A DNA stretch of 64,000 nt from Phytohabitans maris. Lineage in GTDB: Bacteria > Actinomycetota > Actinomycetes > Mycobacteriales > Micromonosporaceae. This document shows, piece by piece, positions 5,795 to 46,319 of the stretch. The position numbers were made by a program, and so were the translations under genes. The first letter of the stretch is position 1; the number at the start of each line of letters is the position of its first letter. Where the stretch lies: contig NZ_JAVHUY010000036.1 in assembly GCF_031085175.1 (NCBI RefSeq), positions 1-64,000 of the forward strand, in the 5' to 3' direction. Below the pieces are notes generated by a model that worked only from the letters and a program-made list of their open reading frames with translations, was not told the DNA's origin and ran no database searches.

Positions 5795-7300
5795 CTAGCG
5801 CTTCGTCAGCGGCATGGCCAGCACGGCCTCGGTGCCGCCCTCGGGCCGGGCGCGCAGCTCGATCGTGCCGCTCAGCTCGCCGGTGACCAGCGCGCGCACG
5901 ATCTGCAGGCCCAGCCGCCCGCCGCGCTCCGCGTCGAACGTCTCCGGGAGCCCGGTGCCGTTGTCGACGACGGTGACGTGCAGCTCCTTGCGGTGGCGAT
6001 GGGCGGAGACCACCACCTCGCCCACCGCGCCCACCCCGTCGATCTCCGGGAAGCCGTGCTCGACCGCGTTGATCAGCAGCTCGTTGAGGACCATCACCAG
6101 CGAGGTGGCCATCTCGGCGGGCAGCACCCCGAACGTGCCCTTGCGCCGCATCGCCACCTTGGACGCGGTCGTACCCACCTCGGCGGCGGCCGCCGCCACC
6201 CGGTCGACGATGCCGTCGAACTCCACCGCTTCGTCGCTCGACATCGACAGCGTCTCGTGCACGAGCGCGATCGAGGCGACCCGGCGCACCGACTCCTCCA
6301 GTGCGGCCTTCGCCGACGGCGTCTCGACCCGGCGGGCCTGGAGGCGCAGGAGGGCGGCGACAGTCTGGAGGTTGTTCTTCACGCGGTGGTGGATCTCGCG
6401 GATCGTGGCGTCCTTGGTGACCAGCGCGCGGTCGCGGCGGCGCACCTCGGTCACGTCGCGCACCAGCACCAGCGCCCCGATCGGCACGCCGGCCGGCATG
6501 AGCGGGAGCGCGCGGGTGAGCACGGTGGCCCCCCGCGCCTCGATCTCCTTGCGCGAGGGCGCCTCGCCGCCGAGCGCGGCCAGCACCCGGGCCGAGGCAT
6601 CGGTCCCCTCCAGCGGGTCGTCGGCGAGGCGGGCGGAGAGCGCGGCCAGGTCTTCGCCGACGAGGTGCGAGGCGAAGCCGAGCCGGCGGAAGGCGGACTG
6701 GGCGTTGGGGCTCGCGTACGTCACCTTGCCGCTCGCGTCCAGCCGGATCAGCCCGTCACCGACCCGGGGCGCGGAAGTCGTCTCGATGCGGTGGCTGATC
6801 GGCGGAAACGTGCCGTCGGCCATCATCTGCGCCAGGTCGTCGGCGGTGGTGAGGTAGTTGAGCTCGAGCTGGCTCGGCGTACGCGCGGTCGAGAGGTTGG
6901 TGTCGCGCCCCACGACCCCGATCACCTCGCCCGGCTCCCCGTCGGCGTCGCGCAGCCGCACCGGGATCGCCTCGTGGCGGGCGGGAGTGTCCCCGTACCA
7001 GACCGGGTCGCCTTCGCGCCAGATCCGCCCCTGCCGGTACGCGATGGTCAGGTGCGCCACCTCGGGCCCGCCGACCGTGCGGCCGACCTGGTCGTCCTGG
7101 TAGGCGGTGGGTGCGGTCGTGGGCCGCACCTGCGCCACGCAGAGGAACGCCTCGTGGCCGTTGACCGGCACCCAGAGCAGCAGGTCGGCGAAGGAGAGGT
7201 CGGCGAGCAGCTGCCACTCACCGGCGAGCCGGTGCAGGTGGTCGATGTCGTCCGAGCCCAGCGAGGTGTGCTCTTCGACCAGGTCGCGCAGCGTGGGCAC
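5795..7300 (-). CDS. pdtaS: Sensor histidine kinase PdtaS
   Basis: A soluble 501-residue kinase, the usual length of mycobacterial PdtaS, which phosphorylates an ANTAR-type antiterminator partner. An N-terminal GAF-like domain (about 1-150) is followed by a PAS domain (about 175-290), the HisKA_2 dimerisation helix with the phospho-acceptor in REIHHRVKNNLQT (about residue 310), and an HATPase domain with NELLINAVEHG and GRLGLQIV. No membrane segment is present. The GTG at 7300 lies 6 nt after tagagt, a -10-like TANNNT hexamer, so the mRNA may be leaderless. The partner regulator PdtaR is not encoded nearby, which is normal. Its position near sigR, the biotinyl protein and wbl matches the mycobacterial sigH region. 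Confidence 0.9.
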   Translation of the reverse strand: MPTLRDLVEEHTSLGSDDIDHLHRLAGEWQLLADLSFADLLLWVPVNGHEAFLCVAQVRPTTAPTAYQDDQVGRTVGGPEVAHLTIAYRQGRIWREGDPVWYGDTPARHEAIPVRLRDADGEPGEVIGVVGRDTNLSTARTPSQLELNYLTTADDLAQMMADGTFPPISHRIETTSAPRVGDGLIRLDASGKVTYASPNAQSAFRRLGFASHLVGEDLAALSARLADDPLEGTDASARVLAALGGEAPSRKEIEARGATVLTRALPLMPAGVPIGALVLVRDVTEVRRRDRALVTKDATIREIHHRVKNNLQTVAALLRLQARRVETPSAKAALEESVRRVASIALVHETLSMSSDEAVEFDGIVDRVAAAAAEVGTTASKVAMRRKGTFGVLPAEMATSLVMVLNELLINAVEHGFPEIDGVGAVGEVVVSAHRHRKELHVTVVDNGTGLPETFDAERGGRLGLQIVRALVTGELSGTIELRARPEGGTEAVLAMPLTKR

Positions 7301-36375: not shown

Positions 36376-37544
36376 CGTGGGGCGGCGGGGAGGGTGACCG
36401 TGACGACCAGGCCGCCGCCGTCGCGCGGGCGGGCGGTCGCCTCGCCGCCGTGCGCCCGGGCCACCGCGCGCACGATCGACAGCCCCAGGCCGGCGCCGGG
36501 TGCCGAGCCGAGCCGGTCGCCATCCAGCCGGTGGAACGGCTCGAAGAGGCGCGGCACCTCGTACGGCGGCACGACCGGGCCGGTGTTGCTGACCACCAGC
36601 ACGGCGGAGCCGTCCGGCAGGGTGTCGCTGGTGATGCCGACCCAGCCGTCGGCGGGCACGTTGTAGCGGATGCCGTTCTCCACGAGGTTTTGCACCAGGC
36701 GCTCCAGCAGCACGGAGTTGCCGGCCGTGGGCGCCGAGCCGGCCTCGGTGAGGATCGTCACCTGGCCCTGCTTGGCCTGCTCCGCCACGTGTTCGACGAT
36801 GTCCACGAGGTCCACATAGGAGCGTTCCACGACCTCGCGCTCGGAGCGGGCCAGCACGAGCAGCCCGTCGAGCAGCCGCTCGTGGCGTCCGTTGATCTCC
36901 AGCAGCGTCTCGCCCAGCTGCCGTACCTCCAGCGAGGCGCTGCGCCGGTGCACGGCCACCTCCAGCAGCGCCCGGTTGAGCGTCAGCGGGGTACGCAGCT
37001 CGTGCGAGGCGTTCGCCACGAAGCGCCGCTGGCCGTCGAAGGACTGGTCCAGCCGTTCCAGCATCACGTCGAACGTGTCGGCCAGCCGCTTCACCTCGTC
37101 GTGCGGGCCGTCCAGCGCGATCCGCTCGTGCAGGCCGCGGTCGGCGGCCGGGGCGTCGGCGATCCGCGCGGCCGTCTCGGTCATCCGCTGCAGCGGCTGG
37201 AGCAGCCGGCCGGCGATGAGCCAGCCCAGCGCGGTCGCCGCGACGCCGGCCAGCACCAGCGCGATCCCGCCCTGGGTGAGCAGCGCGTCCAGCGCGTCGT
37301 CCCAGGTGTTTTCGACGACCTTCGACTCGACCACGCCACCGACGGGGCCCTCGCCCGGGCCCGGAGTCGCCGGCGCCTCCACCCCGCCGTTGAACGTGAC
37401 CCGCTGGTCGGGGTCGGGGATCCGCTGGGCGAGCAGCGCGTACGTGACGCCGAGCAGCAGCACCCCGGCCACGAGGAAAAGCCCGCCGTAGACGAGGGTC
37501 AGCCGGGCGCGGATGGTGAGCCGGGAGAGTCGGGTGAGCTTCAC
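36372..37544 (-). CDS. HAMP-type sensor histidine kinase
   Basis: A 390-residue inner-membrane kinase. Two membrane segments (about 14-38 and 92-112) bracket a short external domain; HAMP follows (about 113-175). The acceptor His is in VANASHELRTPLTL (about 184), and the HATPase has NLVENGIRYN, a G1-type box and GAGLGLSIVRAVARAHGG. The GTG overlaps the response-regulator stop. The system faces the efflux operon at 38.4-41.9 kb and probably controls it. Confidence 0.9.
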   Translation of the reverse strand: MKLTRLSRLTIRARLTLVYGGLFLVAGVLLLGVTYALLAQRIPDPDQRVTFNGGVEAPATPGPGEGPVGGVVESKVVENTWDDALDALLTQGGIALVLAGVAATALGWLIAGRLLQPLQRMTETAARIADAPAADRGLHERIALDGPHDEVKRLADTFDVMLERLDQSFDGQRRFVANASHELRTPLTLNRALLEVAVHRRSASLEVRQLGETLLEINGRHERLLDGLLVLARSEREVVERSYVDLVDIVEHVAEQAKQGQVTILTEAGSAPTAGNSVLLERLVQNLVENGIRYNVPADGWVGITSDTLPDGSAVLVVSNTGPVVPPYEVPRLFEPFHRLDGDRLGSAPGAGLGLSIVRAVARAHGGEATARPRDGGGLVVTVTLPAAPR

Positions 37545-38197
37545 GGGATCCGGTACCCCACTCCCGGGTCGGTGAGCACGACGGGCGGGTCGCCGAGCTT
37601 GCGGCGCAGCTTGAGGATCGTCATCCGCACCGCGTGGGTGAACGGGTCGGCATGCTCGTCCCACGCCTTCTCCAGCAGAAGCTCGGCGGAGACGGCCGCA
37701 CCCTCGGCCCGCAGCAGCTCGGCCAGCACCGCGAACTCCTTGCGCGACAGCGGGACGTACCGCCCGTTCCGGTACACCTCGCGCCGGTGCAGGTCGAGCC
37801 GGATCCCGGCGCGCTGGAGCACCGGCGGGGCGGCCGGGCGGGAGCGGCGGCCGAGCGCCACGACCCGGGCGGCCAGCTCCGGGAAGGCGAACGGCTTGGG
37901 CAGGTAGTCGTCGGCGCCGAGGCTCAGCCCGGCGACCCGGTCGTCGATCTCGGCGGAGGCGGTGAGCATCAGCACCCGTACCGGGGACTCGCCGGCCACG
38001 ATCGCGCGGCACACGTCGTCGCCGTGCACCACCGGCAGGTCGCGGTCGAGCACCACCACGTCGTAGTCGTTGACGTCGATCCGTTCGAGCGCGGACCCGC
38101 CGTCGTGCACGACGTCGACCGCGTGCGCGTCGCCGCGCAGCCACTCGGCCACGGCGCCGGCGAGCAGCGGCTCGTCCTCGACCACCAGGATCCGCAT
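37541..38197 (-). CDS. OmpR-family response regulator
   Basis: A 218-residue regulator: receiver domain with EDEP and phospho-Asp in VVLDRDLPVVHGDD (about residue 51), Lys in PKPFAF, and a winged-helix output domain ending DDPPVVLTDPGVGYRIP. The start at 38197 (MRILVVEDE) is chosen; a GTG six codons upstream is possible. It pairs with the downstream kinase (GTGA overlap). Confidence 0.9.
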   Translation of the reverse strand: MRILVVEDEPLLAGAVAEWLRGDAHAVDVVHDGGSALERIDVNDYDVVVLDRDLPVVHGDDVCRAIVAGESPVRVLMLTASAEIDDRVAGLSLGADDYLPKPFAFPELAARVVALGRRSRPAAPPVLQRAGIRLDLHRREVYRNGRYVPLSRKEFAVLAELLRAEGAAVSAELLLEKAWDEHADPFTHAVRMTILKLRRKLGDPPVVLTDPGVGYRIP

Positions 38198-38368
38198 ACC
38201 CCCATGGTGACCCACGGTGATGTCACTTCGGCGTCATCGTTTTCGGAAACGCCCGCGTGATCCCCGCCCCGCTCTACTCGGCCATGGCGGCCGGATGGCC
38301 CGGCCGCCGCCATCCAAAGACGGCCGGGGGACAAGACGGCCAGGGACAAGGACGGTCAGGGAGAGATC

Positions 38369-38938
38369 ATGCGGATCAGGACAGGCGTCGTGCTCGGGCT
38401 GCTGGTGGCCCTGAGCGCGGCCGGCTGCGGCGGCGGGGACAGCGGCGACCAGGTGGCCACGGCCGGCGGCAAGACCCCGGAGGCCACGGCGAGCGCCGAG
38501 CCGGCCGGCGCAGACGAGAAGGACGCGATCCTCGCGTACTCGAAGTGCATGCGCGAGAACGGCGTACCGGAGTTTCCCGACCCGGAGGTGGGCGAGGGCG
38601 GCGAGTTCCGGCTGGCGCTGCCCGAGGGGGTCGACAAGGCGAAGGTCGACGCCGCCCAGGCGAAGTGCAAGAAGTACATGCCGAACGGTGGCGAACCGCA
38701 GAAGGTCGATCCGGAGCGGCTCGAGCAGATGCGCAAGTACGCCAAGTGCATGCGGGAGAACGGCGTTCCCAAGTTTCCGGACCCGCAGGAGGGCGGCGCC
38801 GGCTTCCAGATCAACGGTGACGAGGTCGGCGACCCGAACAGCGCGGCGTTCCGGGCGGCCGAGGAGAAGTGCCGCTCGGTGCTGCCGGACGGGCCGGGTG
38901 GCGGCCCGAAGACGACCACCGAACGGAAGGAGTCGTGA
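38369..38938 (+). CDS. Lipoprotein with a duplicated Cys motif, partner of an efflux system
   Basis: A 189-residue secreted lipoprotein (lipobox SAAGC). The mature part carries two copies of a segment with the pattern KCMRENGVPxFPDP, about 64 residues apart, each followed by a second Cys (KCKK and KCRS). Paired cysteines could form disulfides in the cell envelope. No family name is recognised. Its stop overlaps the HlyD gene start as GTGA, so it is the first member of an envelope efflux operon. Confidence 0.7.
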   Translation: MRIRTGVVLGLLVALSAAGCGGGDSGDQVATAGGKTPEATASAEPAGADEKDAILAYSKCMRENGVPEFPDPEVGEGGEFRLALPEGVDKAKVDAAQAKCKKYMPNGGEPQKVDPERLEQMRKYAKCMRENGVPKFPDPQEGGAGFQINGDEVGDPNSAAFRAAEEKCRSVLPDGPGGGPKTTTERKES

Positions 38939-40011
38939 GCGGGCGGCGACGGCGGCGGACCGGCCGGGTGGCGGTCGCGGCGGGCGTGGTGGTGGTCGCC
39001 GGCGCGGTGGCCGCCACCGGGTTCGGCCTCGGCCTGCCGGGCGGCGACGCGCCCAGCGAGGCGAGCAGCGACCTGCCGCCGGCCACCGCCGAGGTGACCC
39101 GGCAGACGCTGGTGGACACCCAGGCCGAGAGCGGCGAGCTCGGGTACGGGGCGACGATCTCGGCGGCCGCCCGCTCGGGCGGGACGGTGACGGGCCTGCC
39201 GGCGACGGGGTCGACGGTCGAACGGGGGCAGGCCCTCTACCGGCTGGACAACGCGCCGGTCGTCCTGCTGTACGGGTCGCTGCCGGCGTACCGGGCGCTC
39301 GCGGTGGGCACGGAGGGCGCGGACGTCACCCAGTTCGAGAAAAACCTCAAGGCCCTCGGGTACGGCGGGTTCACGGTCGACGACGAATACTCCGGCGCGA
39401 CCGCCGAGGCGGTGAAGGAGTGGCAGGAGGACCTCGGCCTGCCGGAGACCGGGACGGTGGAGCTGGGCCGGGTGGTCTTCGCCGCCGGCGAGGTGCGGGT
39501 CGACAGCCACGACGCCGAGGTGGGCGAGGCCGTCCAGCCCGGCACGGCCGTCGTCTCCTACACGGGTACCGCGCGCGTGGTCACCGTCGAGCTTGAGGTC
39601 GCCGACCAGCGGCTGGCCCGCAAGGGCGCGGCCGTCACGGTCACGCTGCCGGACGGCACGGAGACCCGCGGCAAGATCACGAAGACCGAGCTGGTCATCA
39701 AGCCGGCCGAGGGGCAGGAGCCGGCCTCGACCACAGTGGAGGTGACCATCGGTGTCGACGACGCCAAGGCGGTGGCCGGCCTCGACCAGGCGACCGTGGA
39801 CGTGGCGTTCACCGCCTCCCAGCGGGAGAACGTGCTCACCGTCCCGGTCGCCGCGCTGCTCGCGCTCGCCGAGGGCGGTTACGGGGTACAGGTCGTGGAG
39901 GGGGCGGCCACCCGGATCGTGGCGGTGGAGACCGGCATGTTCGCCACCGGCCGGGTGGAGATCTCCGGCGACGGGATCGCCGAGGGCGTGACCGTGGGGA
40001 TGCCGTCGTGA
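38935..40011 (+). CDS. HlyD/MacA-type efflux adaptor with peptidoglycan-binding domain
   Basis: A 358-residue envelope adaptor: one N-terminal membrane anchor ([20 protein letters not shown]), a lipoyl/hairpin-like segment, a peptidoglycan-binding domain ([20 protein letters not shown] then [15 protein letters not shown], about 125-170) and a beta-barrel with [16 protein letters not shown]. It links the MacB-like pump below to the wall. GTG overlaps the upstream stop; its own stop overlaps the ATPase start. Confidence 0.82.
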
Positions 40012-40709
40012 CGGCGTCACATGCAGCTCGTCGGAATGGGACCAAGCAAGCGCCTTCAGTGGTCGAGCTGGACGGGGTGACGAAGGAGTACGCCGGCGGC
40101 GTGGTCGCCGTGCGCGGCGTCTCGCTGACCGTCGGGTACGGCGAGGTGGCCGCGATCGTCGGCCCCTCCGGCTCGGGCAAGTCGACGATGCTGCACCTGA
40201 TCGGTACGCTCGACCGCCCCTCGGCCGGCACCGTCCGGATCGACGGGTACGACGTGGCCGCCCTCTCCGACCGCCAGCTCTCCGCGCTCCGGGCACGCCG
40301 GATCGGCTTCGTGTTCCAGCAGTTCCACCTCGCGAGTGGACAGTCCGCATTGGACAACGTCGCGGACGGGCTGCTCTACGCGGGCGTACCCCTGAAAGAG
40401 CGCAAGCGGCGCGCGGAGGCCGCGCTGGACCGGGTGGGGCTGGCGCACCGCCTGGACCACCGGCCGCACGAGCTCTCCGGCGGGGAACGGCAGCGGGTGG
40501 CGATCGCCCGCGCGGTGGCCGGCGAGCCCGCGCTGCTGCTCGCGGACGAGCCGACCGGCAACCTCGACTCCGCCGCCGGCGGCGGGGTGATGGCGCTGCT
40601 GCGCGAGCTGCACGCCTCGGGTACCACGGTGCTCGTCATCACCCACGACCGGGACATCGCGGCGAGCCTGCCCCGGCAGGTGTCCATGTTGGACGGGGCG
40701 GTGGTCTGA
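40008..40709 (+). CDS. MacB/LolD-type ABC transporter ATP-binding protein
   Basis: A 233-residue ATPase with Walker [11 protein letters not shown], signature [13 protein letters not shown], Walker [15 protein letters not shown] and H-loop VITHDRD. It powers the FtsX-type permease encoded next. The GTG start overlaps the adaptor stop; the N-terminal stretch before [14 protein letters not shown] is a short basic extension. Confidence 0.92.
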
Positions 40710-41912
40710 GTGGCCACCGTGCTCTCCCCCGCCCGGCTGCGCCCCCGCGACGTGCTCCGGGTCGGCGGCGCCGGGCTGCGCACCCGGCCGCTGCGGGCGT
40801 TCCTCTCCGCGCTCGGCATCGCGATCGGCATCGCCGCGATGACCGCCGTGGTCGGCATCTCCTCGTCCAGCCGGGCCGAGCTCGACCGCGAGCTGGCCAC
40901 GCTCGGCACCAACCTGCTGACCGCCGGGCCGGGCAAGACGATCTTCGGTGGCGACGCGAAGCTGCCCACCGAGTCGGTGGCGATGGTCGCCCGGATCGGC
41001 CCGGTGAACGAGGTCGCCGCGACCGGAAAAGTACCGGATACGAAGGTCTACCGCAGCGACCGGATACCGGAGGCGGAGACCGGCGGCATGAGCGTGCAGG
41101 CGGCCCACCTCGACCTGCTCGGCACCGTCGGCGCCAAGCTCACCAGCGGCACCTGGCTGAACGCGGCCACGTCCCGCTACCCGGCGACCGTGCTGGGCGC
41201 GTCGGCGGCCCGCCGGCTCGGCATCGGCGCGGCCGGCCCGGACATCCAGGTGTCGGTGGGGGGTGTCTGGTTTACGGTCGTCGGGATCCTGGACGAGGTG
41301 CCGCTCGCGCCGGAGCTCGACAGCGCCGCGCTGGTCGGCTGGGCGGCGGCGGAGGGCTACCTGGACTTCGACGGCCACCCCACGACGCTGTACACCCGCT
41401 CGGACGACGCGGCCGTGGAGGCGGTCCGGGCGGTGCTCGCCGCGACCGCCAACCCGGAGTCGCCGAGCGAGGTCGAGGTCTCCCGCCCCTCCGACGCGCT
41501 GGAGGCGCAGCGGGCGACCGACCGGGCGTTCACCGGGCTGCTGCTCGGGCTCGGCGCGGTCGCGCTGCTCGTCGGCGGCGTCGGGGTGGCCAACACGATG
41601 GTCATCTCCGTGCTGGAACGGCGGGCGGAGATCGGCCTGCGCCGCTCGCTCGGCGCCACGCGGGGGCAGATCCGGGTCCAGTTCCTGGCCGAGTCGCTGC
41701 TGCTGTCGGCGCTCGGCGGGGCGGGCGGGGTGGTGCTCGGCATCGCGGTCACGACCGTGTACGCCAGCACCCGCTCGTGGCCCTCGGTGGTACCGGCCTG
41801 GGCGATGGCCGGCGGGGTGGGCGCCACGCTCCTGATCGGGGCGGTCGCCGGCCTCTACCCGGCGATCCGGGCCGCCCGCCTCGCACCGACGGAGGCCCTG
41901 GCCACGCCCTGA
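40710..41912 (+). CDS. MacB/FtsX-type ABC transporter permease
   Basis: A 400-residue permease: TM1 near residue 25-50, a large external MacB-PCD domain (about 55-270) and three C-terminal segments with GGVGVANTMVISVLERRAEIGL (partly quoted) and RSLGATRGQIRVQFL, hallmark of the FtsX family. Together with the lipoprotein, HlyD and ATPase it forms a type-VII-like tripartite export machine for peptides, antibiotics or lipoproteins; substrate unknown. Downstream is a strong hairpin. Confidence 0.9.
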   Translation: MATVLSPARLRPRDVLRVGGAGLRTRPLRAFLSALGIAIGIAAMTAVVGISSSSRAELDRELATLGTNLLTAGPGKTIFGGDAKLPTESVAMVARIGPVNEVAATGKVPDTKVYRSDRIPEAETGGMSVQAAHLDLLGTVGAKLTSGTWLNAATSRYPATVLGASAARRLGIGAAGPDIQVSVGGVWFTVVGILDEVPLAPELDSAALVGWAAAEGYLDFDGHPTTLYTRSDDAAVEAVRAVLAATANPESPSEVEVSRPSDALEAQRATDRAFTGLLLGLGAVALLVGGVGVANTMVISVLERRAEIGLRRSLGATRGQIRVQFLAESLLLSALGGAGGVVLGIAVTTVYASTRSWPSVVPAWAMAGGVGATLLIGAVAGLYPAIRAARLAPTEALATP

Positions 41913-41921
41913 GTCGCGGAT

Positions 41922-41955
41922 GGCGCCGTGCCGCGCTCGTCAGCGGCGCGGCGCC
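41922..41955. terminator. Bidirectional hairpin between convergent genes
   Basis: ggcgccgtgccgc (41922-41934) pairs with gcggcgcggcgcc (41943-41955) with one G-T wobble. It follows the permease and extends into the last codons of the leftward STAS-ATPase gene. Confidence 0.75.
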
Positions 41956-42683
41956 TGGTCGAGCATGGCCCAGACGACCTTGCCGCCCTCGGTGGGCAGG
42001 CTCCCCCAGTGGCGGGAGACCGCGTCGACGAGGGCCAGGCCGCGGCCGGCGAGGGCGGTGTGCGAGACGTCCCGGCGGAGCACGGGCTCGACCGGGCTGC
42101 CGTCCCGTACGGCGATGTGCAGGTAGGGGTCACGCAGGGAGAGCCGGAGGGTCATCATCGTGTGCGCGTGCGCGACCACGTTGTTGACGAACTCGGTCAC
42201 GACCGTGCACGCCGGCCCCACCAGGCCCGGCACCTCCCACTGGAAACACACCTCGGTGGCGAGCTCGCGGGCCCGACGGCCGGCGCCCACCACCGGGAGC
42301 AGCTCCTCGCTGACCGAGGGCGCCGCCGAGCCGGGCTCGAGCGAGCGCACCGCGTCGGCCAGGCTGGGCAGCACGGGCAGCTCGCAGTCGAACGCGCGGC
42401 GCTGCAGGAACTCGGCCGCGTCCGCCTGGGGCGCGCAGAGCACGAGGGGTACGGCCGGCCAGCGCTCCGCCTGCCGGGCCACGGCGAGGAAGACCGAGAG
42501 CGCACTCGGATCGGCCAGGCGCATCTCGGACAGGTCGACGAAAACCGCCTCCGGCTGCTCGGCCAGGCACTTGATCAGAGCCGACCGCACCGCGACCGCG
42601 CCCATGCCGTCCAGGACGCCCACGACGCGCGCGACCGCGTACGCCTGGCGATCGTCGATCAGACACTGGACGGCTGTCGGCAT
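41940..42683 (-). CDS. STAS-HATPase fusion protein (anti-sigma kinase with its own STAS domain)
   Basis: A 247-residue fusion. The N-terminal STAS domain (about 1-105) includes LIKCLAEQPEAVFVDLSEM and LADPSALSVFLAVA, where Ser takes the phospho-site. The C-terminal HATPase (about 125-247) has an intact N-box TEFVNNVVAHA and G2-type loop AGRGLALVDAV, so ATP binding is expected. STAS proteins and HATPase anti-sigma factors are normally separate partners; here both are in one chain. The start at 42683 (MPTAVQC) has GAGG 5-8 nt upstream. It diverges from the STAS/sigma operon and likely regulates it. Confidence 0.8.
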   Translation of the reverse strand: MPTAVQCLIDDRQAYAVARVVGVLDGMGAVAVRSALIKCLAEQPEAVFVDLSEMRLADPSALSVFLAVARQAERWPAVPLVLCAPQADAAEFLQRRAFDCELPVLPSLADAVRSLEPGSAAPSVSEELLPVVGAGRRARELATEVCFQWEVPGLVGPACTVVTEFVNNVVAHAHTMMTLRLSLRDPYLHIAVRDGSPVEPVLRRDVSHTALAGRGLALVDAVSRHWGSLPTEGGKVVWAMLDQAPRR

Positions 42684-42891
42684 GGCACCTCGTTGTCCGC
42701 AGGGGGCCCTCAAGCGAGGTTACCCGCCGTTCGCCCAGGAAAACCGTGATCACTGTGGGTTAGCAGGGCCGCTGGCGCCAGCCACCGATCACCAAAAGGT
42801 GACGATACGCGGAGGCTCGCGGCGGGTCCTGACTCAACGGGCGTTACGGCCGAGCGGTCCTCGGGTACGGTCCCTTGCGGAGGGTTGGTCG

Positions 42892-43227
42892 ATGACATAC
42901 GACTTCGACCTCCGGGTGGAGATGCCGAGTGGGGGCACCGCACGGGTGGTGGTCAGCGGCGAGATCGACATGGCTGTCGCAGAGGCGCTTTCGGCGAGTG
43001 TGCTTGGCGTTCTCCGCGCCGACGGGGTCCGGCTTGTCGAGGTGGAGCTGTCCGCGGTGGGGTTCATCGACGCCTGCGGCGTGGGTGCCCTGGTCGCCGC
43101 GCGCAACGACGCGCGGGGACAGGGCAAGACCCTGGTGGTACGCGGCGCCCGCGGCCTGCCCCGGCGCGTCCTGGAAATGACCGGCGTCTTCGGCGTACTG
43201 GTCGGAAAGCCGGTCGGAGCCAGGTGA
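42892..43227 (+). CDS. STAS-domain anti-anti-sigma-like protein lacking the phospho-serine
   Basis: A 111-residue STAS protein. The usual DSSG phospho-site reads DACGVGALV, so neither serine is present and partner switching by phosphorylation is unlikely; constitutive binding to a HATPase is possible. The ATG at 42892 has GGAGGG nearby. It is joined to the next gene by a TGATG overlap. Confidence 0.85.
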   Translation: MTYDFDLRVEMPSGGTARVVVSGEIDMAVAEALSASVLGVLRADGVRLVEVELSAVGFIDACGVGALVAARNDARGQGKTLVVRGARGLPRRVLEMTGVFGVLVGKPVGAR

Positions 43228-43973
43228 TGCTCCAGCGCCTGCGGTGCACGACCGCCCACGAGCCGCCGCTCGCGGTGCTCCGCGCCGACGGCGCGCTCAC
43301 CCTCCGCACCGCCGCCCAGCTCCGCGCCGCACTGCTCAAATGCCTTGCCGAGCAACCGATCGCGATCCTCGTCGACGCGGCCGGGCTCACCGTCGGCGAA
43401 GACCTGAGCCTCACCGCGTTCATGGCGGCGGCCCGGCACGCGGCCGCCTGGCCGGCGGTGCCGCTGCTGGTCTGCGCGCCCCCGCGCGACATGCGGGCGG
43501 CGCTGCGCCGGCTCGGCGCCGACCACCATCTGCGGCTCTGCACGGATCTCGACCACGGCCGCGCCGTCGCCACCCGCCGCGAGCCGCCCGCCCAGGTGCG
43601 CGACGAGTTTCCGGCCGCCGCCGCATCGGTACGGGCGGCCCGCTCCCTCGTCTCCGGCCTCTGCGAGCGCTGGCGGCTGCCGGTGGTCGAGCCGGCCCGC
43701 CTGGTCACCACCGAGCTTGTCGACCACGCGGTCCGCCACGCCGGTACCCCGATCGAGCTGACCGTCACGCACGGCCGGCGCCACCTTCACCTCGCCGTAC
43801 GCGACTTCCGCCAGCGGCGCTCGCGGCTCCTGGGTCCAGAGGGGACAGCCGCGCCTGGTGGCCGCCGTCCACCGCTGATCGAGGCGGTCTCGGCAAGTTG
43901 GGGTTGCACTCTCTTGCCCGACGGTAAGGTCACGTGGGCAAGCCTTCATTTAACGGCACGTTCGCGTATCTGA
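43227..43973 (+). CDS. STAS-HATPase fusion with degenerate ATP site
   Basis: A 248-residue paralogue of the protein at 41940-42683. The STAS half matches it closely (ALLKCLAEQPIAILVDAAGL). In the HATPase half, the N-box reads TELVDHAVRHAG where the Asn that binds Mg2+ is replaced by His, and the GxGL loop is altered to GGRRPPLIEAV. A working kinase is therefore doubtful; it may act as a scaffold or inhibitor in competition with the intact paralogue. It ends 102 bp before the sigma-factor gene. Confidence 0.78.
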   Translation: MLQRLRCTTAHEPPLAVLRADGALTLRTAAQLRAALLKCLAEQPIAILVDAAGLTVGEDLSLTAFMAAARHAAAWPAVPLLVCAPPRDMRAALRRLGADHHLRLCTDLDHGRAVATRREPPAQVRDEFPAAAASVRAARSLVSGLCERWRLPVVEPARLVTTELVDHAVRHAGTPIELTVTHGRRHLHLAVRDFRQRRSRLLGPEGTAAPGGRRPPLIEAVSASWGCTLLPDGKVTWASLHLTARSRI

Positions 43974-44075
43974 TCCGGTGGGATATTCCGCCAGCCGACT
44001 GGGTAGGAATCGCGAGTCCGCCCGCGCCCGTTCGGGGCCGTGCCATCCCAGGCTTCTGTCGTAAGGAGGCGGTGA

Positions 44076-45185
44076 ATGCACTCGGAACAGGACACTGCCC
44101 AGCTGAACCTCGACGAGGAAGCGGCGCGGTACGGGGAACGCGCCGCGCGTGAACCGTCCGCTCGGGCGGAGTTCGTGGAGCTGTGCCTGCCGCTTGCCCA
44201 TCGGCTCGCCCATCGCTACCGCGGAAGGGGTGAGCCGTTCGCGGACCTGGAGCAGGTGGCCCGTCTCGGGCTGGTCAAGGCGGTCGACCGGTACGACGCC
44301 GAACGTGGCTCGTTCACCGCGTTCGCGGTCATCACGATCCTTGGTGAGCTGCGCAAACACTTCCGCGACCGCACCTGGGGCGTACGCGCGCCACGGCGGC
44401 TGCAGGACCTCGTCGTGCAGATCCGGCACGCCGGTTCGGACCTGACCAACACGCTCTCCCGGGCGCCGAGCACCACCGAGCTCGCCGATCGCCTGCACAC
44501 CACCACCGACGAGGTGGACAAGGCGATGCTCTCCGCCGCCGGCTACACGCTGCTGTCACTGAACGCGCCGGTCACCAGCCCCGGCTCCGGCGGCGGTACC
44601 GCCGAGCGGGGCGACCTGATCGGCGAGGTCGACGGTGACCTGGCCGCGATCGACGACCGGCTCACCATCCAGTCCCTGCTGGACCGGCTCCCCGAACGCG
44701 AGCGGCGGATCCTGATCCTTCGCTTCTACGGCAACCTCACGCAGGTCGAGATCGCGCAGCGGTGCGGCATCTCCCAGATGCACGTCTCCCGGCTGCTCTC
44801 CAAGACGCTGGCCTGGCTGCGCCACGCCATGCTCAGCGACACCCCGCCACACTGGGGCGAGGTCGACGAGGCGAGCCTGGAAGCACCGCGGCTGCGGGTC
44901 ACCACCACGCCGGCCGGCGGCGGCACGCTGACCGTCGCGATCGGCGGCGAGGTCGACCGGGACAGCGCCGACGAGCTGCGCCAGGCCATCCTCAACGGCC
45001 TGGCCCGCCGGCCACACACCCTGCACCTCGACCTGTCCGCGGTCCCGTTCATCGACGCGGCCGGGATCGCCGCGCTGATCTCCGGGTACCAGGAGTCCCG
45101 GCGGGCCGCGGTCGAGTTTCGCCTGCGCGGCACCCAGCCGCACGTCCGGCGGGTCCTCGCGGTCGCGCGGCTGCCCTATATGTAG
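44076..45185 (+). CDS. SigB/SigF/SigG-type sigma factor fused to a C-terminal STAS domain
   Basis: A 369-residue protein. Residues about 1-265 are an alternative sigma factor: region 2 has FADLEQVARLGLVKAVDRYD, region 3 GVRAPRRLQDL, and region 4 RLPERERRILILRFYGNLTQ then CGISQMHVSRLL. Residues about 272-366 form a STAS domain (GEVDRDSADELRQAILNGLA, VPFIDAAGIAALI) that lacks the phosphorylatable Ser (reads DAAG). A sigma factor carrying its own antagonist-like domain is unusual. A clear ribosome site (aaggaggcgg) precedes the ATG. The adjacent STAS-ATPase proteins should be its regulators. Confidence 0.88.
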   Translation: MHSEQDTAQLNLDEEAARYGERAAREPSARAEFVELCLPLAHRLAHRYRGRGEPFADLEQVARLGLVKAVDRYDAERGSFTAFAVITILGELRKHFRDRTWGVRAPRRLQDLVVQIRHAGSDLTNTLSRAPSTTELADRLHTTTDEVDKAMLSAAGYTLLSLNAPVTSPGSGGGTAERGDLIGEVDGDLAAIDDRLTIQSLLDRLPERERRILILRFYGNLTQVEIAQRCGISQMHVSRLLSKTLAWLRHAMLSDTPPHWGEVDEASLEAPRLRVTTTPAGGGTLTVAIGGEVDRDSADELRQAILNGLARRPHTLHLDLSAVPFIDAAGIAALISGYQESRRAAVEFRLRGTQPHVRRVLAVARLPYM

Positions 45186-45229
45186 GAGCGAGTTCGGACC
45201 TCTCGGAGCCGTCCGGCGAGGAAGGCGCG

Positions 45230-45512
45230 CTTTGGGGGCGCGCGTGATCCGCACGGCCATCGTCGCCTCCTGCACCGGGTACGCCCCTGCCACCTCTGCC
45301 ATGGACAGGCCGCACACCAGCCGCAGGGTCAACGCGATCTGCGCGTCCCGCCCGATCGCGGGGTGGCAGCAGGTGAAGATCAGCCGCAACCGGTCGTCGT
45401 CGAGCCCGTCCTCCGGCCCGGGCCCCGGCTCGTCGGCGACGAGCCGGGGCATCGCCCGCCGGACGGTCGACTCGCGCCGCAGCACGTCCCGCGCCCGGTG
45501 GTGACGCAGGTG
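45230..45512 (-). pseudogene. Fragment of an ECF42-like sigma factor
   Basis: Read leftward, the region encodes ARDVLRRESTVRRAMPRLVA, then DDRLRLIFTCCHPAIGRDAQ and LTLRLVCGLSMAEVAGAYPV, which match the middle of ECF42/SigJ-like sigma factors. The first helix of region 2 and the large C-terminal domain are missing and flanking frames are unrelated, so this is a decayed remnant left beside the sigma-STAS gene. Confidence 0.7.
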
Positions 45513-45683
45513 GTCGCCATCGGCGCGAGCTCCAGCTCGTGCCCCCGAGTATCCGCGACCCGCCCAGATCGACAATCGGTCCCAGGCAAAGCCACCGACG
45601 GGCGACCACGGGCCGGCGGGGTCTCGCGTATTGGGGACTTTCGCCTCTGCACGGCCGGCGCGCACCCGCGACAAGATCGAGTT

Positions 45684-45884: not shown

Positions 45885-46319
45885 ATGGCAGACATCGACC
45901 TGGTCGGCCGGATCGTGGTGGGAATCGACGGATCGGAGGCGTCGAAGGACGCGCTACGGTGGGCCGTGCGGCAGGCGAAGCTGACCGGTGCGCCGATCGA
46001 AGCCGTGATGGCGTGGGAGTTTCCCGCCTACTACGGGTGGGCCCCGGCCGATGACTTCGACCTGGCTGAGGTGAGCCGCGACGCGCTACGCGCGGCCGTC
46101 GACGACGCGCTGGGCGTGGAGCGAACGGCGCAGGTGCGGCAGGTGGTGGCGGAAGGAAACCCGGCCCGCGTGCTCATCGACGCGGCCAAGGACGCGAGCC
46201 TGCTGGTCGTGGGGAGTCGGGGCCACGGTGGGTTTGCCGGCGCGCTGCTCGGCTCGGTGAGCCAACACTGCGCACAGCACGCCCCCTGCCCCGTCGTGGT
46301 GGTGCGACACACCGCCTGA
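45885..46319 (+). CDS. Universal stress protein (UspA family)
   Basis: A 144-residue single-domain USP. The ATP-binding motif is VVGSRGHGGFAGALLGSVS, and the N-terminal strand VVGIDGSEASKDALRWA is typical. It likely binds ATP and acts in starvation or hypoxia. GGAGG precedes the ATG at 45885. Confidence 0.93.
   Translation: MADIDLVGRIVVGIDGSEASKDALRWAVRQAKLTGAPIEAVMAWEFPAYYGWAPADDFDLAEVSRDALRAAVDDALGVERTAQVRQVVAEGNPARVLIDAAKDASLLVVGSRGHGGFAGALLGSVSQHCAQHAPCPVVVVRHTA

Follow-up and report, generated by a model that had tools for sequence, protein, structure and literature searches.

The window analysed here is a 64,000-nucleotide stretch of DNA from the soil bacterium Phytohabitans maris (contig NZ_JAVHUY010000036.1, positions 1 to 64,000), taken from a genome of 9.87 Mb (G000) that belongs to the same genus as Phytohabitans suffuscus and P. 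flavus. Between positions 41,940 and 45,185 it contains a cassette of four genes which, judging from sequence comparisons, represents the Phytohabitans form of the published sigma-SsdA/SipA system, whose core, a sigma-STAS protein paired with a STAS-HATPase, has been known since 2023 from Actinoplanes missouriensis (Nat Commun; PMC10733313). An earlier sequence-only reading had suggested that this cassette could be a previously undescribed form of partner switching, which is not supported by the comparison with the published pair: the sigma factor P0001 shows 53% identity to SsdA across 366 residues, and P0003 shows 45% identity to SipA across 243 residues. The four-gene layout, which includes a pseudo-SipA and a free STAS protein, is a variant of which we found no description. 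We consider it fairly probable that in this cassette the SipA-like protein docks on the STAS domain of the sigma factor, that release occurs by competition and dosage, and that the sigma factor drives a negative feedback.

The four open reading frames (ORFs) are intact, with three on the plus strand and P0003 divergent. The features of the cassette are as follows.

41940..42683, minus strand: P0003, SipA orthologue, with an N-terminal STAS (motif DPSA) and a C-terminal HATPase.
42721..42744, minus strand: predicted SsdA-type promoter, exact match to the published GnTT-n14-CGGGTA, 37 bases upstream of the P0003 start codon.
42842..42868, plus strand: possible SigB-type promoter upstream of the small STAS gene (GTT ... 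CTCGGGTAC), from a four-genome alignment.
42892..43227, plus strand: small single-domain STAS protein (motif DACG).
43227..43973, plus strand: P0002, SipA-like STAS-HATPase whose ATP site is ruined (N-box ELVDH, G1 DFRQ, G2 GRRPPL).
43982..44005, plus strand: possible weak SigB-type promoter upstream of the sigma gene (GATA-n14-TGGGTA), from a four-genome alignment.
44076..45185, plus strand: P0001, SsdA-type sigma factor with a C-terminal STAS (SigB/F/G core at about residues 28-252, STAS at residues 282-365).
44919..45170, plus strand: STAS domain of P0001, with the motif DAAG at residues 327-330 (45054-45065) and Ala at the acceptor position.

The reference SsdA/SipA pair was recognised in locus L200 (genome G166), where the lengths (379 and 243 residues) and the residues D68, F91, S100, L372 and S229 agree. 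The ORFs and profile matches confirmed the domain inventory given by the sequence-only reading: two STAS-HATPases, one small STAS protein and a sigma factor that ends in a STAS domain. P0001 scored 242 bits against the SigB/SigF/SigG family TIGR02980 (cut-off 234), and its residues 282-365 gave 57 bits with the STAS family PF01740. P0003 lies above the Pfam cut-offs for both PF01740 (N-terminal STAS) and PF13581 (C-terminal HATPase_c_2), has an intact ATP site (N-box EFVNN, G1 DGS, G2 GRGL) and falls with the Phytohabitans SipA-like genes in a quick tree. The small STAS protein matched PF13466 with 54 bits.

An assembly error as the source of the sigma-STAS fusion was ruled out, because the fused frame is open and 95-96% identical in three further genomes of the genus. 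The sigma core is strongly conserved, with ratios of nonsynonymous to synonymous substitution rates (dN/dS) of 0.03-0.07 in pairs of cassette species. In an AlphaFold 2 model of P0001, residues 271-360 form blocks with a predicted local distance difference test score (pLDDT) of 89-97 and the linker is less certain; since the predicted template modelling score (pTM) is 0.37, neither the packing of the domains nor an inhibition in cis can be read from it. An origin of the fusion in mobile elements was rejected on the results of phage and plasmid searches with P0001. The 66 phage records found are all below 60% identity, and most of the 60 listed break off about where the sigma core stops; among those listed, only the two records of Bacillus phage Slash extend far into the STAS part, at 24% identity. 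In KF669661.1 (70582-71493) the phage Slash sigma gene is 24% identical and the match reaches query residue 341, inside the STAS part. The 104 plasmid records are likewise all below 60% identity; among the ten listed, two Rhodococcus rows span 80% of the query, and the one inspected is an ordinary unfused sigma gene of 257 residues, with the match continuing beyond its stop.

The mode of action of the sigma-STAS domain can be approached from the characterised relative. In A. missouriensis, the ATPase domain of SipA bound the STAS domain of SsdA in two-hybrid assays, binding to the SsdA sigma core, which is the direct contact in RsbV/RsbW/SigB switching, was not detected, the deletion of sipA mimicked an excess of sigma activity, and docking on the SsdA STAS was taken as inhibitory to sigma (PMC10733313). 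By orthology, the ATPase domain of P0003 would dock on the C-terminal STAS of P0001 and hold the sigma factor inactive. The idea that STAS domains in the cassette serve as docking modules which cannot be phosphorylated at the usual serine is supported both by this binding and by the survey described below. The opposite proposal is that the sigma STAS protects in cis, occupying an RsbW-type anti-sigma factor while the tethered core stays free and constitutively active. It would fit the STAS of P0001, which is devoid of a phospho-serine as is the SpoIIAA chain 1tid_B (DASG). In the orthologous pair, however, STAS docking is published as inhibitory and the sipA deletion gives excess sigma activity (PMC10733313), and a STAS-HATPase gene is found close to the majority of the fused sigma genes (see below). 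We regard the protection in cis, which the sequence-only reading had also considered, as very improbable.

The distribution of the fusion was determined in a sample of 200 Micromonosporaceae genomes, with a threshold of E <= 1e-68 for the sigma search. Matches were found in 111 genomes and in 17 of 44 genera (139 matches, 138 loci); six genomes contained only a sigma gene without STAS, so that the fusion is carried by 105 of 200 genomes, in keeping with a real fusion rather than an artefact. A STAS-HATPase gene was present within the flanks of about 5-6 kb, some of which are cut by contig ends, in 89 of 133 fused cases (L124, with a split STAS match, was counted as fused) and in four of six unfused cases, most often downstream and on the opposite strand. 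Locus L121 (G195) contains two sigma-STAS genes about 5 kb apart (5983-7191 and 11989-13320). A class-wide search with a sigma-STAS profile (E <= 1e-90) matched 190 of 394 genomes; among the matches listed, only three, all from Micromonosporaceae, span the STAS domain, and the others end at or before model position 294 of 356.

The phospho-acceptor site was then compared across the family. In the window, the four STAS domains carry the motifs DAAG, DACG, DPSA and EDLS, none with the Ser or Thr of the DSxG site, and the altered sites reported earlier for the sigma STAS (DAAG) and the small STAS (DACG) were both confirmed; because of these motifs, the cassette does not provide the phosphorylatable STAS antagonist of the RsbV type. 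Among the 138 distinct sigma proteins, 132 have a STAS domain, and the acceptor column of these contains Ala in 119 cases, Gly in seven, Pro in two and His, Met, Val and Thr in one each, with no Ser in any of the 132. No Ser or Thr was found at this column in the 121 scorable linked STAS-HATPases (124 distinct, three unscorable), while the N-box Asn is present in 122 of 124, being lost in one fragment and in P0002. As a control, Ser was found at the site in 11 of the 24 STAS domains of the window genome that could be aligned (26 found, two unaligned; three window domains included). A serine-less STAS is thus not rare in this genome; the notable point is the fixation of this state throughout the family. 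Since Ser is missing from all sigma STAS domains and all scorable STAS-HATPases, switching of the RsbV type by phosphorylation appears unlikely in the SsdA/SipA family. In the open-access literature no report of this absence was found, nor any of the promoter enrichment, the old paralog with the ruined ATP site or the STAS losses described below, by searches that were not targeted at each of these four points in turn; the main text of the 2023 paper has four instances of words beginning with "phosphorylat-", all of them either introductory or in connection with RsdR (PMC10733313).

A classical phospho-switch might still operate if a serine-bearing STAS protein encoded away from the cassette were phosphorylated by P0003 and competed for it. 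The intact ATP site of P0003 and the serine-bearing STAS domains encoded elsewhere in the genome are compatible with such a scheme; on the other hand, no serine-bearing STAS protein is encoded in the cassette, and we judge the scheme unlikely. Because no STAS of the cassette has a phosphorylatable serine, release of the docked sigma factor would more probably occur by competition and dosage than by a cycle of phosphorylation and dephosphorylation.

Two products of the cassette are candidates for this release. The small STAS protein is, after the sigma core, the most constrained part of the cassette (dN/dS 0.04-0.13 in six species pairs), and its nearest solved relatives by sequence are antagonists of the SpoIIAA type. 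The SpoIIAA chain mentioned above, 1tid_B, is presumably the S-to-A form crystallised with SpoIIAB. We infer a role of the small STAS protein as a competitor, which would bind the ATPase domain of P0003 in place of the sigma STAS.

The second candidate is P0002, whose ATG overlaps the stop codon of the small STAS gene (TGATG). This protein was described in the sequence-only reading as one of two STAS-ATPase twins. The order of the domains is indeed the same, yet the term is misleading because P0002 is a degenerate old paralog: it is only 35% identical to P0003 (41% to SipA over 225 residues), belongs to a different clade and has a ruined ATP site. Its N-terminal STAS and C-terminal HATPase_c_2 matches remain below the Pfam cut-offs (PF13466, 26.9 vs. 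29.2 bits; PF01740, 19.6 vs. 22.6; PF13581, 22.6 vs. 27.4), and neither the Asn of the N-box nor the glycine of G1 nor the G2 motif is preserved. In the counterparts from three congeneric genomes the Asn is retained and the G1 glycine is also missing. In a quick tree these four genes of the genus form a clade of their own (support 100) on a long branch apart from P0003, at a place where the program warns of long branches meeting. As far as this tree tells, P0002 is an old paralog and not a fresh duplicate. A second STAS-HATPase, here called SipA2, was observed in 23 loci of the genus of A. missouriensis (e.g., L200:1122-1874); it also forms its own clade (support 100), and its gene is separated from the ssdA-type one by about 0.9-3.9 kb.

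The losses in the ATP site, the dN/dS of the HATPase part, which rises to 0.55 in a pair that includes the window copy, and the restriction of the clade, among the loci fetched, to four genomes of the genus would also suit a decaying duplicate without a role, in which case the function would rest with P0001 and P0003, perhaps together with the small STAS protein. In fact, the ORF is open in all four genomes that have the gene, pairwise dN/dS stays below 1 in six pairs for each part (0.15-0.55 for the HATPase, 0.13-0.23 for the STAS), the last 25 residues are nearly invariant, the start/stop overlap with the small STAS gene is in place, and the tree, with its long-branch warning, indicates an old paralog. 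We find mere decay doubtful, and P0002 is read as a putative pseudo-ATPase with some remaining role, possibly that of an antagonist. It may tie up P0003 as a decoy or in a mixed dimer, as RsbW3 of Mycobacterium smegmatis, an RsbW homologue, acts as an antagonist by pairing with RsbW1 (PMC10950880).

The SsdA promoter has been published as GnTT-n14-CGGGTA (PMC10733313). In the window, an exact match to this pattern was found once, as compared to 0.11 expected, and it lies upstream of P0003; the same site, or a form with a spacer longer by one base, is present in three other genomes of the genus. A slightly loose form of the pattern was found upstream of 25 of 123 STAS-HATPase genes, where the background of these loci predicts 2.2, and upstream of none of 139 sigma genes (2.5 expected), these counts coming from related species and hence being non-independent. 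Eight of 26 sites share one and the same position, -26 relative to the estimated start of the gene. When the letters of the motif were permuted, the true order ranked first of 60 (25 upstream regions), followed by motifs with 18 and six. Of the 18 sites of the second-ranked motif, 16 lie 211-287 bases upstream, and we take them to be conserved coding sequence of the preceding gene. As for the other two candidate promoters of the cassette, the -10 block upstream of the small STAS gene is identical in four genomes, with a spacer that does not fit the n14 pattern, and the -10 box upstream of the sigma gene (43982..44005) is likewise identical in four genomes, with no match to the SsdA pattern.

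Because SsdA-type sites are enriched upstream of sipA relatives and not of sigma genes, a negative feedback is suggested, in which the active sigma factor is predicted to recognise its own kind of promoter upstream of the sipA-like gene and to transcribe that gene. This feedback has to be set against the upstream region of A. missouriensis sipA, which is without the pattern, as are 98 of the 123 STAS-HATPase upstream regions, and against the other SigB/F-type sigma genes of the window genome, which could use the same promoter. Genome-wide, GTTT-n14/15-CGGGTA occurs in the window genome at 18 sites (L278-L295), as compared to one for the reversed pattern, and because of these other sigma genes the sites cannot be assigned to P0001 alone; several of them precede genes of a stress type. 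Ten ORFs behind them, picked by a simple rule, were scanned over at most their first 90 residues, and seven match Pfam (hemerythrin, Pyr_redox_2, alcohol dehydrogenase, ChaB, BrkB-type, DUF2231 and sulfotransferase). The 17 published SsdA targets include an alcohol dehydrogenase (PMC10733313).

The relation between the sigma STAS and SipA was also considered where one of them has been lost. In six loci (L114-L119) of genus g4, the sigma protein is 95-96% identical over 250 residues to its fused congener, ends shortly after the core and has no adjacent STAS remnant; these six genomes represent a clean loss of the domain. The frame between sigma and sipA in loci L088 and L115 is, we assume, cytochrome c oxidase subunit I. 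Since in Micromonospora ctaD separates the two genes, which adjoin in Actinoplanes (PMC10733313), g4 is probably Micromonospora. The presence of P0003 was searched in 16 hand-picked genomes, of which 11 matched. No match at E <= 1e-15 was obtained in G204 and G194, both with a STAS-less sigma (locus L118 of G194 gave one weak HATPase-only match, 4e-13), nor in G015, G076 and G095 of genus g11, where the motif of the sigma STAS is now EHGG or EPGG. This pattern of loss fits, without proving it, a functional link of SipA to the STAS domain of the sigma factor. A mirror-tree analysis was not used as evidence for this link: over 88 pairs, with the core controlled for, the distances of the sigma STAS track those of the SipA ATPase domain at a partial r of 0.59, but in 23 loci SipA2 tracks the sigma STAS as well (0.32 vs. 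0.25), and the signal is therefore unspecific.

Other observations weigh against a cassette controlled by docking and competition. Four of the six STAS-less genomes retain a sipA-like gene about 2.2 kb from sigma, and its HATPase half is under purifying selection (dN/dS 0.32, vs. 0.20 and 0.21 in two fused groups). Genome G011, one of the 11 with a P0003 match, has SipA-like genes, but the sigma search at E <= 1e-68 gave no fused gene in it. In one sigma STAS the acceptor site is occupied by Thr, and in four rows Ser or Thr occurs one residue later (DATG in three, DASG in one). In the published model of the SipA complex, two STAS domains sit on opposite faces of the ATPase domain and do not compete, and the authors allow for a post-translational modification of SipA (PMC10733313). 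Finally, P0003 is not beside the sigma gene as sipA is in Actinoplanes: it lies 1.4 kb away, the small STAS gene and P0002 intervene, and P0002 is the direct neighbour of sigma. This last point was treated as descriptive and the membership was kept, because gene layout varies in the family.

The SsdA/SipA-type cassette with docking, release by competition and feedback remains our preferred reading. A more specific scheme, which we put forward only as a tentative possibility, is a phosphorylation-free partner switch. Sigma activity would depend on the ratio between the serine-less STAS domains, whether free or carried by the sigma or the anti-sigma factor, and a single ATP-competent SipA; an ATP-dead paralog of SipA would serve as antagonist within the cassette, and the sigma factor would drive its own inhibitor. 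The 2023 paper left open how SipA releases SsdA (PMC10733313). That the phospho-serine is absent throughout the family speaks against a textbook release of the RsbV type, and with the small STAS protein and P0002 the Phytohabitans cassette supplies two further products that are natural candidates for the partner that brings about the release. The STAS-less genomes that keep a sipA-like gene are natural tests of STAS docking as the sole mode of inhibition. If true, the sigma-driven promoter of sipA would make the stress response self-limiting.

The genes around the cassette (37541-41912 and 45885-46319) are ordinary, comprising a response regulator, an exporter of the HlyD/ABC/MacB type and a universal stress protein. 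Tail-to-tail with the sigma gene, a frame at 45213-45518 on the minus strand shows a weak likeness to the C-terminal half of an extracytoplasmic function (ECF)-type sigma factor (TIGR02937, 16.5 bits vs. a cut-off of 42.9) and has no Pfam match; it is perhaps a gene remnant.

Sigma-SsdA systems have been listed for Actinoplanes, Pseudosporangium, Couchioplanes, Micromonospora and one Nonomuraea, and the name Phytohabitans is absent from the main text of that paper (PMC10733313). The likeness of the present cassette to SsdA/SipA is extensive: both pair a SigB/F/G sigma factor that carries a STAS domain at its C-terminus with an anti-sigma factor made up of an N-terminal STAS and a C-terminal RsbW-like ATPase, the orthology being clear, and the SsdA-type promoter motif occurs in the Phytohabitans window. 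The difference is that in Phytohabitans sipA and sigma are separated by two genes, one for a small serine-less STAS protein and one for a SipA-like protein whose ATP site is ruined, and that the SsdA-type promoter stands upstream of the sipA-like gene, where none was seen for sipA of A. missouriensis. The SigF/RsbW3 case of M. smegmatis, where an RsbW homologue antagonises by pairing with a true anti-sigma factor, offers a model for P0002, whereas a sigma-STAS fusion goes unmentioned in the passages on RsbW3 (PMC10950880). With RsbV/RsbW/SigB and SpoIIAA/SpoIIAB/SigF the cassette shares the domain types, that is, the sigma core, the STAS antagonist and the GHKL ATPase of the anti-sigma factor, and the ATP site of the RsbW-type anti-sigma kinase is complete in P0003 and not in P0002. 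It differs from both in that the domains are fused into the sigma and anti-sigma factors, that none of its STAS domains has the phospho-serine, and that, in the characterised relative from A. missouriensis, docking takes place on the STAS of the sigma factor itself (PMC10733313).

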